Positions 16,371-23,756 of a DNA stretch of 33,325 nucleotides are shown piece after piece. The stretch spans positions 1 to 33,325 of the forward strand of contig JAFGRQ010000026.1 in NCBI GenBank assembly GCA_016935155.1, in the 5' to 3' direction. Under the pieces are notes generated by a model. It made no database searches. It was given only the letters and a program-made list of their open reading frames with translations, and had not been told where the DNA came from. The first letter of the stretch is position 1. Each line of letters begins with the position of its first letter. The stretch comes from Candidatus Woesearchaeota archaeon. GTDB lineage: Archaea > Nanobdellota > Nanobdellia > Woesearchaeales > UBA10107. The translations under genes and the position numbers were made by a program.

Positions 16371-17369
16371 ATGGAAGAATTCCCTAAAATAGGAGATTTT
16401 CAGCCAAAAGGAAAGTTCTTTCTAGCTCCGATGGAGGCAGTAAATTGCGCATCTTTCAGGATTTTGTGCAAGAGAAGAGGCGCTGCATTAGTTTATACTG
16501 ACATGATTGATGCAGACGATTTCGCAGAAGAAGCAAAAAAAACATCTGTTGAAAAGGCAGTCAAGAAATTCGTAAATCCACAAAAAGAAGAGCAGCCCTT
16601 AGCAATTCAATTAATAGGAGCAAAGGCAGACAGTCTGCTTTTCACAGCAAATGCTTTGGAAAAAAATGCCGTTTTGGTTGATTTTAATATCGGATGTTCG
16701 ATTGGAACGGTTCTTGGAAAAAAATGCGGGTGTTACTTGATGAAACACCCAGATCAATTGTATAAATTACTAAAAGCGTTAAGAGAAAACATAAAAAAAC
16801 CATTAACGCTGAAAATGAGAAGCGGTTGGGATAAAGATTCAATAAATGCTGTTGAAATTTCTAAAGAAGCGGAAAAAATCGGAATAAATGCCGTTGCAAT
16901 TCATGCAAGAACAAAAGAACAAGGCTACAGAGACAAATCAGATTGGGAATTAGTAAAAGAAATTAAGAAAGCAGTTTCAATCCCTGTTATTTTGTCCGGA
17001 GATGTATTCAATGATTTCGGTGCAGACAAGGCATTTGCAGTAACAAAATGTGATTACATAATGATTGGAAGAGGTGCAAGGGCAAATCCTTCTATTTTTA
17101 CGCAGCTGAATAAGTGGTATGAAACAAAACAAGTAACGAGCACAAGGGACTTGATTTATAACAAATGGAATGTCAATCCTGCAAAAGATTTTATTGAATT
17201 CTTGGATTTATATCACAAAGTTGAAGACAGAAGAAGCTTTTCAGAAATAAAAGACCATGCTTTGTGGACGGCAATAGAATGCAAATACAACAGAGATGCA
17301 ACAGAAGCAATAATGAATGCAGAAGATGAGAAAGATTTGATTAGAATTGTTAATTTGCTGGAATTCTAG
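16371..17369 (+). CDS. tRNA-dihydrouridine synthase family protein
   Basis: 'FFLAPMEAVNCASFRILCKRRGAALVYTDMI', 'LTLKMRSGWD', 'VAIHARTKEQGYRDKSDWELV', 'IMIGRGARANPSIF' are Dus motifs. Confidence 0.92.
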   Translation: MEEFPKIGDFQPKGKFFLAPMEAVNCASFRILCKRRGAALVYTDMIDADDFAEEAKKTSVEKAVKKFVNPQKEEQPLAIQLIGAKADSLLFTANALEKNAVLVDFNIGCSIGTVLGKKCGCYLMKHPDQLYKLLKALRENIKKPLTLKMRSGWDKDSINAVEISKEAEKIGINAVAIHARTKEQGYRDKSDWELVKEIKKAVSIPVILSGDVFNDFGADKAFAVTKCDYIMIGRGARANPSIFTQLNKWYETKQVTSTRDLIYNKWNVNPAKDFIEFLDLYHKVEDRRSFSEIKDHALWTAIECKYNRDATEAIMNAEDEKDLIRIVNLLEF

Positions 17370-17701
17370 AAAGTAATGTGGCCAGAAAAATAATCAAAGA
17401 TGCACTTTGCAGTCTCCTGCGCAATTTGATTTGTGCCATGTACAACGAAACTTGCTTTTTCTCCTTTGATTAATGAAGGAAGGCGGCTGTCTTTGCCCCC
17501 AAACCGGTCTTCTTTGCAGTCATAAAATCTTCCAATATATTTTACAGCAATATCGATGTCTTTTACTCTTTCGTCTGTGCAGAATTCGTAGAATATTCTC
17601 GAATTCTCAAGTCCAGCCAAAGAAATTTTGAGTTCTTTTATAGTTATTTCAAGATTTCCGCTGTATTCAAGAATTGAAGGTTCGATTTTTGTTAATCCCA
17701 T
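17366..17701 (-). CDS. Hypothetical protein, 111 aa
   Basis: Intact ORF with TATA-like TTTAAATAA about 25 nt upstream on the reverse strand. Confidence 0.65.
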   Translation of the reverse strand: MGLTKIEPSILEYSGNLEITIKELKISLAGLENSRIFYEFCTDERVKDIDIAVKYIGRFYDCKEDRFGGKDSRLPSLIKGEKASFVVHGTNQIAQETAKCIFDYFSGHITF

Positions 17702-17750
17702 GCCCCCTCAACAATCAATTATTATTTAAAGTTAATTATTTGATAACGAA

Positions 17751-17867
17751 GTTAGCACCGCTCGCGATTAAATGTAATCTTATCAGAAATCGTTGCAGTC
17801 CCGTAGGGAGCTACCCCAGCAACTCTTTTTAAAAATCCAAAATAAATCGCTCGCCCCTGGTGCTAAC
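17751..17867 (+). ncRNA. Candidate structured RNA, copy 1: GTTAGCACC...GGTGCTAAC terminal stem, GCGATT/AATCGC inner stem, GTTGC/GCAAC apical stem
   Basis: Perfect 9-bp terminal inverted repeat 117 nt apart plus nested inverted repeats; TATA-like ATTATTTAAA about 25 nt upstream on +; matches the architecture of 22081-22199. Confidence 0.6.
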
Positions 17868-18203
17868 CTACTTAACAACTCTTACGTCTTTTCCAATCAA
17901 CTGCAATTCTCCATCTAGGCCTTCGCTTGCTGTGCCTTTGATTTCAACATAATCTCCTTTATGCAAATCAATTGGATAGTCTTTGAATAAAACAACAGTT
18001 AGTTCATCTTCTTTCTGCAAGTCAATAAATGTGACTGAATCTCGTTCAGTGATTCTGTTTATTGTTCCCCTGACTAAATATGTTTTATCCTGTTCAAGCA
18101 GAGAACCTTCTCCAGTTTCGATTGTTTTTGAAATGAAAAATAAAAAAATCAGGCCAAGAACGGCAGACAGCAAAGTCAATTTCAACAGTGTTGATTCCTG
18201 CAT
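17868..18203 (-). CDS. Membrane-anchored OB-fold protein
   Basis: N-terminal TM segment; 'YLVRGTINRITERDSVTFIDLQ...LHKGDYVEIKGTASEGLDGELQLIGKDVRVV' is OB-fold-like. Start MQESTLLK chosen. Confidence 0.72.
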   Translation of the reverse strand: MQESTLLKLTLLSAVLGLIFLFFISKTIETGEGSLLEQDKTYLVRGTINRITERDSVTFIDLQKEDELTVVLFKDYPIDLHKGDYVEIKGTASEGLDGELQLIGKDVRVVK

Positions 18204-18262
18204 AAAGAAGTAAATCCAGTAACCTTTAAATACCATTGTATTCTCTTTTTCAATGGGGGAAA

Positions 18263-20427: not shown

Positions 20428-21417
20428 ATGTCAAACGGAAATGATGTACCCCACAACGAAGATCCAATTGTTCGTGAGTACATTGCGAGACTAAAATCGG
20501 AACTAAAACAGTATGAGAAAGAACTAGCTGGTGCTCAAGAAAGAGCAAATAGGGAATCAAAACAAAAATCAGAACTGGAGCAAAGGGTGGAAAAATTAAG
20601 TTCAACTCTGTTGACAACGAATGCAGAACTTGTCAGGGCAAATAGATTGCTAGTCGAAAAAACAACAGAAAATCAAGTATTGCATACACAGCACATCACA
20701 GATGATACTACCGGAATTCCGAATAAAAATTATTTGAGAGCCAGATTGACAGAAACAATAAAAACATCACAAAAATACGGAACATCTTTCTTATTCGGGC
20801 TAGGTGATTTGGATGGGTTCAAAATAATCAACGATACTTTCGGTCACGAAGAAGGAGACGGAATTCTAAAGGCAGTTACAAAAATAATCCTTCCCGCAAT
20901 ACCTGAAGAAGGCGTATTTGGAAGATGGTATCAAGGAGATGAATTTGCGTTTATTCTTCCAATCGGTGCTCCTAAAAAAACAGCAGAGCTTGGCGGCGGG
21001 GCAAAGAATGATGAAGCAAATAAAGCACTTTATGTTTTTGGAGATGTATTGAATAGATTAGAAAAAGCAAATCCAATCGAATATGAAATAGGAGCTCCAG
21101 AAGGAGACCTTGCAATAGGAAGAACACTTCCTGATGATATGCCTCTAACAATTTCATTGGGTGTTGTACAATACGATTCAAAAAGACACAGAAGCAATTG
21201 GAACGCAATTGCAAAACAGGCAGACGCATTAATGTACAAATCAAAAGAAGTAGGAAATAAAGGGCTTGCTAAGTTGTGTGACAGAGAACAACCATATTCA
21301 ATAGGAAATCCGGTAGCAATGAGTGCCTCCGATTACCTAAGAAATTTACCAGACGCCCTAGGAAAGGGGTTTAAGGCATGCAGCAAGGCCTTAAAAAGAA
21401 GAAGAAAACTCCACTAG
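20428..21417 (+). CDS. GGDEF-domain protein with N-terminal coiled coil (signature reads YQGDEF)
   Basis: 'DDTTGIPNKNYLRARL', 'FGLGDLDGFKIINDTFGHEEGDGIL', 'GRWYQGDEFAFIL', 'LTISLGVVQYD...ADALMYKSKEVGNKGLA'. Confidence 0.9.
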   Translation: MSNGNDVPHNEDPIVREYIARLKSELKQYEKELAGAQERANRESKQKSELEQRVEKLSSTLLTTNAELVRANRLLVEKTTENQVLHTQHITDDTTGIPNKNYLRARLTETIKTSQKYGTSFLFGLGDLDGFKIINDTFGHEEGDGILKAVTKIILPAIPEEGVFGRWYQGDEFAFILPIGAPKKTAELGGGAKNDEANKALYVFGDVLNRLEKANPIEYEIGAPEGDLAIGRTLPDDMPLTISLGVVQYDSKRHRSNWNAIAKQADALMYKSKEVGNKGLAKLCDREQPYSIGNPVAMSASDYLRNLPDALGKGFKACSKALKRRRKLH

Positions 21418-21847: not shown

Positions 21848-22039
21848 TTATTTCATAAAAACAAACATTGCCCAGGCAGCAATCAGTAATCCAAGAGCGT
21901 GGGGAAATATTTTTTTTGCCTGATAATTCAGCTTACCTCTAACTGCGCTTTTAGCGATTCTCTTTGTTTTGAGTGCCACAATAAATAATGGCAGCAAGAC
22001 TTTATCAATCCAAAATCCCATTCTAACACCTTTGTTCAT
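21848..22039 (-). CDS. Small single-TM protein, 63 aa
   Basis: Intact ORF with C-terminal hydrophobic segment; TATA-like TTTTAAATA about 25 nt upstream. Confidence 0.55.
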   Translation of the reverse strand: MNKGVRMGFWIDKVLLPLFIVALKTKRIAKSAVRGKLNYQAKKIFPHALGLLIAAWAMFVFMK

Positions 22040-22080
22040 AATAGAGCCACTTAGAATCAGTATTTAAAACTTACTTATCG

Positions 22081-22199
22081 GATTAGCACCAGTTACCGAG
22101 TGATATTTGCTGAGCAATAAATGAAGCTGGAGGGGTCGTACCATCCGGGCCTTCAGCGTTACATAAAAAATTCCAGAGCATCGCGAGTCGGTGCTAATC
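22081..22199 (+). ncRNA. Candidate structured RNA, copy 2: GATTAGCACC...GGTGCTAATC terminal stem, GCTGGAGG/CCTTCAGC apical stem
   Basis: Perfect 10-bp terminal inverted repeat 119 nt apart; compensatory T-A to A-T change relative to copy 1; G-U wobbles in inner stems occur only if read on +. Confidence 0.6.
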
Positions 22200-23756
22200 T
22201 TCAGAATACTTCTTGATGCTCATTTGTCCTTTTCTCTTTGTTTCCTTGACTTCCTCAACCTTTTCTCCAACCTGTTCTTTTACGTATTTAGAAACATTAT
22301 CTCCAATCAACTGCTTTAATTTCATCAAATCAACTTTCTTGACATCTCCCAAATCTTTTATTCCGTTGCTGAACATTTTTCTAGCTCTAATTCTTCCAAT
22401 TTCTTTTAATTGCAGCAAAGGAAGCAGTTCTTCTTTTGCTCCGTATCTTAATCTTGCTCTTGTTTTTAGAATTTCTTTTGATAATTCTCTATTTCCAATT
22501 ATTTTTGAAAGTTCGTAGCATGAATAAATCAGCCAGTCTGCCGTTTCTAATTTTGCTCTTGTTTCTCCAGGTCTGACATCAAATGTTTCTAACAAATATT
22601 CATCATCTTTTTCTTCCATCCATTCCGCGAAAAAAGCAGTTGTTTTGATTGAGTTAAGGAAATCATCATATTCTTCTTCAAATTCATCCGGTTTTTCAGA
22701 AATTATTTCTTCTTCTTTTTCAACAATTAATGATGTGTAGTTTTCATATTCTCTTGATTTGACATTTAGCAGAGGTCTCATTTCAAGCGTATTAACAACC
22801 ATCTGCAAAATTCCGAATGGTTTTGCCGATTTTATGTTTTTGATTACTTCAATGAATTTATGAGCGGTTAATGGGTCGATATATAGTTGTGAAACTCTTT
22901 TTCCGAGTTCAGTTGCAGTTATTTTTGAGTCTTCAACCTCATCTGCTGAAACAAAATCTGATTTTTTGCTGTTTGTTTCAATAAATTCAAATTCTTTCAA
23001 TAAATGAATCATTTTGTCTATTATTTTTTCTAACTTGCTCAAATCTTCAAAATGAAACGCCCAGAATGTTTTTGAGAAGAAATCTACCAGTTGTTTTCTT
23101 GAATTTACAAAATTAGATGCAATTAGGCTCAATACATAAGTTCTAAGAACAGGTTCAACAGCTAATTTTGAAGTTATGTCTTCTGGAACTCCATCAACAT
23201 ATTTTTCAGTAACGTCGTCTCTTTCATTTTCAGTTGAAGTAATTATTATTGATTCTCCTTCTGTGTCATATTTAGGACGGCCTGCACGGCCGGCCATTTG
23301 CAAGTATTCTAAAACAGGAATGTAATTGTAGCCTCTGTTTGAAAATCTTTTAACGTCTCTGATAATTGTTCTGAACGCAGGCAAATCAACTCCTGCTGCT
23401 AATGTTGGAGTGCAGCAAATTATTTTTATATTTCCGTTTCTGAAATTGTCTTCAACTAATTCTTTTTGCTTGCTTGTTAATCCTGCGTGATGAAATGCAA
23501 CTTGATACTGAATATGTTCACTCAGTTTTTCACACTGTTTTGTCGGTCTGCTTAATGCTGTTAGAATTTCTTTTGATAATTCTTGATTTTTTGGAGTTTG
23601 ATTCTTCTTCAGAAATCTTGAAACATCTTCTGCAACCTTTTCAGCAGAACGCTTTGCATTAACGAAAACCAAGGCTTGTTTGTTGTTTTTTAATGTGTCT
23701 AGAATTACGTTTAATGTGTCATCATTTGTTTTTTCAGAGATGGCTAGGTTTTTCAT
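22194..23756 (-). CDS. Hel308/Ski2-like SF2 helicase, C-terminal part only (RecA2 domain onward)
   Basis: 'ALVFVNAKRSAEKVAEDV', 'VAFHHAGLTSKQKELVEDNFRNGNIKIICCTPTLAAGVDLPAFRTII', 'YLQMAGRAGRPKYDTEG'; no Walker A or DExH motif in the ORF. Confidence 0.88.
   Translation of the reverse strand: MKNLAISEKTNDDTLNVILDTLKNNKQALVFVNAKRSAEKVAEDVSRFLKKNQTPKNQELSKEILTALSRPTKQCEKLSEHIQYQVAFHHAGLTSKQKELVEDNFRNGNIKIICCTPTLAAGVDLPAFRTIIRDVKRFSNRGYNYIPVLEYLQMAGRAGRPKYDTEGESIIITSTENERDDVTEKYVDGVPEDITSKLAVEPVLRTYVLSLIASNFVNSRKQLVDFFSKTFWAFHFEDLSKLEKIIDKMIHLLKEFEFIETNSKKSDFVSADEVEDSKITATELGKRVSQLYIDPLTAHKFIEVIKNIKSAKPFGILQMVVNTLEMRPLLNVKSREYENYTSLIVEKEEEIISEKPDEFEEEYDDFLNSIKTTAFFAEWMEEKDDEYLLETFDVRPGETRAKLETADWLIYSCYELSKIIGNRELSKEILKTRARLRYGAKEELLPLLQLKEIGRIRARKMFSNGIKDLGDVKKVDLMKLKQLIGDNVSKYVKEQVGEKVEEVKETKRKGQMSIKKYSED

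Follow-up and report, generated by a model that had tools for sequence, protein, structure and literature searches.

A MITE-like family of non-autonomous DNA elements with a conserved folded core in Woesearchaeota

Dispersed palindromic repeats and the two copies in the window

Prokaryotic MITEs, among them Correia/NEMIS, ERIC and the Sulfolobus SM elements (PMC10969869), are short, non-coding, multicopy and intergenic; like the repeats analysed here, they have terminal inverted repeats (TIRs), target-site duplications (TSDs) and stem-loops and lack a transposase of their own. MITEs are usually recognised by their ends, whereas the present elements have at least two end classes with different TSD lengths, an interior fold conserved across an order, and stems that covary without wobble. 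MITEs do not usually combine one core with two end classes. Enterobacteria carry ERIC and long palindromic repeats of 127-168 bp (PMC2759123), which are alike in length, imperfect palindrome and intergenic dispersal; the conserved apical motif and the end classes described below, in contrast, are seen only in Woesearchaeota. REPs are 20-40 bp long and GT pairs are frequent in their stems (PMC3733652). The REP/GTAG palindromes with RAYT are likewise scattered hairpins, in whose stems the two partners of a pair vary together (PMC3733652), but our elements are 131-174 bp or longer, have TSDs and show no GT excess. Integron attC sites, too, are DNA hairpins kept through pairing and not through sequence; the elements here differ in the opposite polarity of their GTT/AAC ends, in their TSDs and in not forming arrays. 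Few mobile elements have, to our knowledge, been described in Woesearchaeota, and a search of the open literature found no description of the present repeat family, which is apparently undescribed.

The window, by which we mean the whole stretch of 33,325 nucleotides analysed here, is one contig of a 771-kb MAG and contains two of these elements (Table 1). Their palindromes, arms and lengths are as given by the first-pass annotation, namely GTTAGCACC/GGTGCTAAC over 117 nt in copy 1 and GATTAGCACC/GGTGCTAATC over 119 nt in copy 2, and the coordinated T-A to A-T change that it reported is real, with arms that pair in both copies. It had also judged the remaining sequence to be largely unalike. 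This is an artefact of antiparallel comparison: the copies face opposite ways, with matches to the covariance model R1 at 17742-17871 (+) and 22078-22207 (-), and their insides looked unalike for that reason. Against shuffled sequences the fold of copy 1 is significantly more stable, with z scores of -3.96 on the + strand and -4.02 on the - strand; the signal of copy 2 is weak (-1.6 and -1.9). The annotated position between two - strand genes, roughly 45-50 nt from one start, holds with measured distances of 49 and 41 nt. Copy 1 adjoins the stop codon of ORF 17868-18236 (-), with 49 nt between it and the start of ORF 17366-17701 (-), and copy 2 overlaps the last codons and stop codon of ORF 22194-23756 (-) and lies 41 nt from ORF 21848-22039 (-). 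Neither a TIR beyond stem A nor a TSD is recognisable at either window copy, and both are probably old family members without recognisable ends.

Two ORFs of the window deserve separate mention. ORF 20428-21417 (+), of 329 aa, encodes a GGDEF (diguanylate cyclase) domain protein (E 1.5e-25), which is, as far as we know, unusual among archaea. The Hel308-like helicase of 520 aa encoded by ORF 22194-23756 (-) matches Helicase_C, HTH_61 and archaeal helicase domain 4; it begins within the helicase core, its N-terminal half having seemingly been split off or lost.

Table 1. Coordinates of the window copies and of related loci
Feature	Position	Strand	Remarks
Copy 1, full folded core	17751..17867	+	R1 132.1 bits, E 1e-26; 117 nt
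Copy 1, stem A 5' arm GTTAGCACC	17751..17759	+	
Copy 1, stem A 3' arm GGTGCTAAC	17859..17867	+	
Copy 1, stem B 5' arm GCGATT	17764..17769	+	preceded by GCTC internal-loop motif
Copy 1, stem B 3' arm AATCGC	17845..17850	+	followed by TCGC internal-loop motif
Copy 1, stem C GTTGC/GCAAC	17794..17825	+	around conserved apical motif TCCCGTAGGGAGCTACCCC
Copy 2, full folded core	22081..22199	-	R1 97.6 bits, E 7e-19; 119 nt
Copy 2, stem A arm	22081..22090	-	3' arm in family orientation
Copy 2, stem A arm	22190..22199	-	5' arm in family orientation
Second-class repeats (loci include)	L126:2950-3110, L146, L155, L157, L065, L068, L076, L100, L115, L129, L247:11007		
GGCTCTGT-ended elements with unrelated interiors	L340:1501-1663, L359, L356:1501-1761, L347		
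Elements with inserted ACAATCTCGACAAAGTCGAGCTGTG-like hairpin	L201:4176-4348, L293:10165-10337, L290:428-607, L306:13171-13351, L297:5028-5251		

Distribution and structure of the folded core

The two window copies had been described as a two-member family. An exact pattern of the stem arms already finds 6 copies in the window's genome and 6 in its congener UBA10107, and R1, which was built from 18 copies, finds about 22 and about 35, respectively. Further copies in related genomes, a check named beforehand, are plentiful: R1 matches occur in at least 67 of the 244 sampled genomes of the order (Woesearchaeota), spanning 54 genera. With a wider model, R2, 68 of 380 genomes of the phylum match, 67 of them in the same order; the sole genome outside it belongs to the same class and matches weakly. 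Among the matches listed from a scan of GTDB genomes for the apical motif, the titles read Woesearchaeota, Nanoarchaeota/Nanoarchaeia or archaeon, apart from one Roizmanbacteria contig. That contig (L129; LBTJ01000079.1), the sole non-archaeal title among these listed matches, carries a second-class repeat of the kind described below and is possibly a misbinned archaeal contig. Scanned phage, plasmid and viral contigs yielded no copy of the element. Neither the window copies nor seven related loci match Rfam at the gathering score, the best score for the window copies being a chance-level U6 fragment (E 3.4); the annotation of an undescribed structured family absent from Rfam is to this extent supported.

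The core, about 118 bp in length, is built of stem A, an internal loop, stem B, an A/T-rich loop, stem C and an apical motif with the order-wide consensus CCCCGTAAGGGACRWCCCC. In the alignment used for pair counts (A6), which was fitted to the model so that the counts lean towards structure, the 24 stem pairs are 94.7% paired across 80 distinct copies (stem A 96.8%, stem B 94.1%). In the 80 copies, 530 cells are changed on both sides where shuffles give 144 ± 10, and the signal collapses in slid controls; for the first 18 copies the corresponding values are 96.3% paired and 73 double changes against 17. The covariation first noticed in the window is thus genuine, and in the family as a whole it is overwhelming. 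Letters are also conserved outside the stems, in the CTCG and CTCGC loops that flank stem B and in the apical CCCCGTAAGGGACRWCCCC. On the opposite strand, tandem G-A facing the CTC/TCG loops might be read as a K-turn or C/D-like motif, a reading that no strand evidence favours.

Ends, mobility and the level at which pairing is kept

Around each of 182 distinct copies we looked for an exact direct repeat of 8-10 bp that encloses inverted ends. This arrangement is present at 38 of the 182 copies, compared with 0-1 in each of 20 shuffles, and the duplication is 9 bp long in 20 cases, 8 bp in 16 and 10 bp in 2. Most ends fall into two classes. Those of the first are GGCTCTGT-like (observed as GGCTCTGTCC, GGCTCTGTAG, GGCTTCATCC, GGCTCTTAGG, GGCTCTCTCC and GGCAGCGTTC) and go with TSDs of mostly 9 bp, two being scored as 10, and with element lengths of mostly 163-168 bp (range 147-210). 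The second class is GTATKTG-like (GTATTTG, GTATGTG and relatives), with 8 bp TSDs and elements of 131-135 or 174 bp. Other ends accompany an 8 bp TSD in two cases, at L118 (GGTCGCATTG) and at L222. A core subtype with CTTC...GACCTNA junctions is present under both end classes (11 and 6 cases). L222 is the only copy in the window's genome to pass the TSD test; most copies there have no TSD, so that their family membership rests on the core.

Comparison with the congener provides one empty site. The flanks of its element at L290:428, when joined without the element, equal an unbroken stretch of the window's genome (L226:2827-3301) at 499 of 500 bases. The congener's orthologue of the OB-fold gene beside copy 1 (17868-18236) has no adjoining element. 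Copies nested within copies, and identical copies at different sites, also occur in the congener. Two neighbouring orthologous gene gaps hold an element in both genomes, once clearly of different subfamilies, which reflects either re-insertion or rapid change in place.

The copies are intergenic and scattered in both orientations, not in arrays, and are unoriented with respect to the neighbouring genes (tandem same 11, tandem opposite 13, divergent 17, convergent 12). A cis-regulatory element or terminator was rejected on this randomness of gene orientation. The contact with a stop codon, pointed out for both window copies and correct for both, is likewise no rule in the family. Adjoining stop codons, a folded palindrome and a length like that of attC might suggest integron-type recombination sites, one after each gene cassette, but the mixture of orientations, the absence of arrays and the TSDs all speak against them. 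The outward ends of the arms, GTT...AAC, moreover have the opposite polarity to attC boxes, and we regard this origin as almost certainly wrong.

Inverted ends, TSDs of 8-10 bp, an empty site and an unoriented gene context are the marks of a mobile DNA element. Several features that define MITEs, namely TIRs, a TSD of fixed length and many short, non-coding, intergenic copies, together with one empty site, are found in the family. It is MITE-like, with a folded core that is unusually conserved and independent of the ends, and the window copies are very probably old, end-less members of this large non-autonomous family of Woesearchaeota.

The same features bear on the first-pass proposal of a small RNA family, as do the wobble pairs. 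A selected RNA helix tolerates G-U on the transcribed strand and does not tolerate A-C. The 1805 cells of stems A-D, from which one conserved G·T column at the base of stem A was omitted, comprise 1693 Watson-Crick pairs, 26 G·T, 27 A·C and 59 others, so wobble pairs favour neither strand. As a control, 40 tRNA genes of the window's genome and its congener gave 781 Watson-Crick pairs, 81 G·T, 0 A·C and 1 other in 863 cells. The contrast of G·T to A·C between element and tRNA has a Fisher p of 7e-14, which is only indicative because the copies are related, the symmetry itself being plain. Without a wobble preference, the pairing is kept at the DNA level. Small RNA genes that act in trans and spread by duplication, with the covarying stems as RNA helices, would account for the covariation, the conserved unpaired letters, the constant length and the lack of an Rfam match, as well as for one orthologous gap with a copy in both congeners. 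They do not fit the symmetry of the wobble pairs, nor the TSDs with inverted ends, the empty site and the unoriented placement. The RNA gene was rejected on wobble symmetry and TSDs, and we consider it quite improbable. A structured RNA is ordinarily demonstrated by covariation. The present family covaries very strongly across an order and yet fails the wobble test, having turned out to be mobile DNA; RNA discovery from metagenomes should take this as a caution.

The pairing, which has persisted in the DNA over a very long period, is maintained through selection on a DNA fold or through template-switch correction, two processes that the data separate incompletely. In the latter case hairpins extruded at replication would have one arm copied onto the other by template switching, with no selection on the fold, and the element would still be a MITE. 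Quasi-palindrome correction is an established mutational process, and the abundance of double changes, with one-sided intermediates and wobble states nearly absent, is what it would produce. However, the internal loops and the apical motif are non-complementary and yet conserved order-wide, where correction of whole arms would erase them, and total length is constant. We hold a purely mutational origin of the covariation to be rather doubtful.

A complete element of the MITE-like family consists of the folded core of about 118 bp enclosed by TIRs, on which DDE-type transposases would act in trans, each end class perhaps being served by a different enzyme. The core may have been retained because folding back on itself, in single-stranded or cruciform form, would be a necessity for the element, whose apical motif some factor would recognise, and because cores and ends may be exchanged as modules. 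Insertion beside stop codons or promoters would reflect tolerated intergenic sites and not a functional transcript. With a conserved interior under changing ends, the family makes it testable whether a DNA hairpin can be the unit of spread.

Candidate transposases and related repeats

The families PF12762, PF01610, PF01609, PF13737, PF00872 and PF01797 are absent from the window's genome, its congener and a TIR-rich genome (G128) wherever they were searched for there. None of these six families tracks the element across genomes, in which they are missing or occur patchily; MAGs under-represent IS copies. Around ORFs of 200-560 aa, the available sequence has only chance-like TIR pairs, none with the ends of the element, so that this search returned no autonomous copy. 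One lead to a candidate autonomous partner is contig G047:C32 (9.0-10.4 kb), where a GGCTCTGTAGAAAAA end that faces inward lies some hundreds of bases from a DDE_Tnp_1 ORF (388 aa). IS903-like ends with 9 bp duplications resemble the GGCTCTGT class, which is again only a lead. G049:C91 was rejected as an autonomous element, being a degenerate copy beside a separate nucleotidyltransferase-like gene pair. At L362:1807-2944, neighbouring ORFs that by eye resemble a nucleotidyltransferase (MNT) and HEPN-like pair lie next to a degenerate copy of the element.

Genomes with the element have Y1_Tnp somewhat more often (12 of 22) than others (5 of 18). This would suit a REP-like substrate, with the hairpin itself recognised by a single-strand transposase of the Y1 kind (HUH, RAYT/IS200-type), as would conservation of the hairpin at the DNA level and an apical motif that includes GTAG or GTAA. 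Duplications of 8-10 bp with inverted ends are, however, unlike Y1 transposition, and Y1_Tnp was not found in the window's genome, the congener or G128; we think such a substrate very unlikely.

At about 27 loci the apical motif occurs in another fold, a three-way junction with a core of about 60-85 nt, in which an outer stem is followed by a GACGG-side hairpin-CCTA, a stem and then ACCCCGTAAGGGACRWCCCCC (Table 1). The CTC/TCG mismatches of the main core are found in the stem of 9 of 21 of these second-class repeats, and none of the repeats shows inverted ends plus a TSD. One such locus lies in the window's genome (L247:11007). Unrelated hairpin interiors also occur under the same GGCTCTGT ends, with a 9 bp TSD where checked. 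The apical motif in a second fold, taken with the same ends over unrelated interiors, suggests that the apical hairpin forms a separate module. It is conceivable, though we put this forward with considerable doubt, that the core as a whole is a selfish or host-used DNA module, its hairpin recognised through the apical CCCCGTAAGGGACRWCCCC, which moves between transposon ends and is common to the second, three-way-junction class without TSDs. If so, DPANN archaea would have in the core a mobile unit of a new kind, based on DNA structure. Finally, a small ACAATCTCGACAAAGTCGAGCTGTG-like hairpin sits at differing points inside several of the UBA10107 elements.
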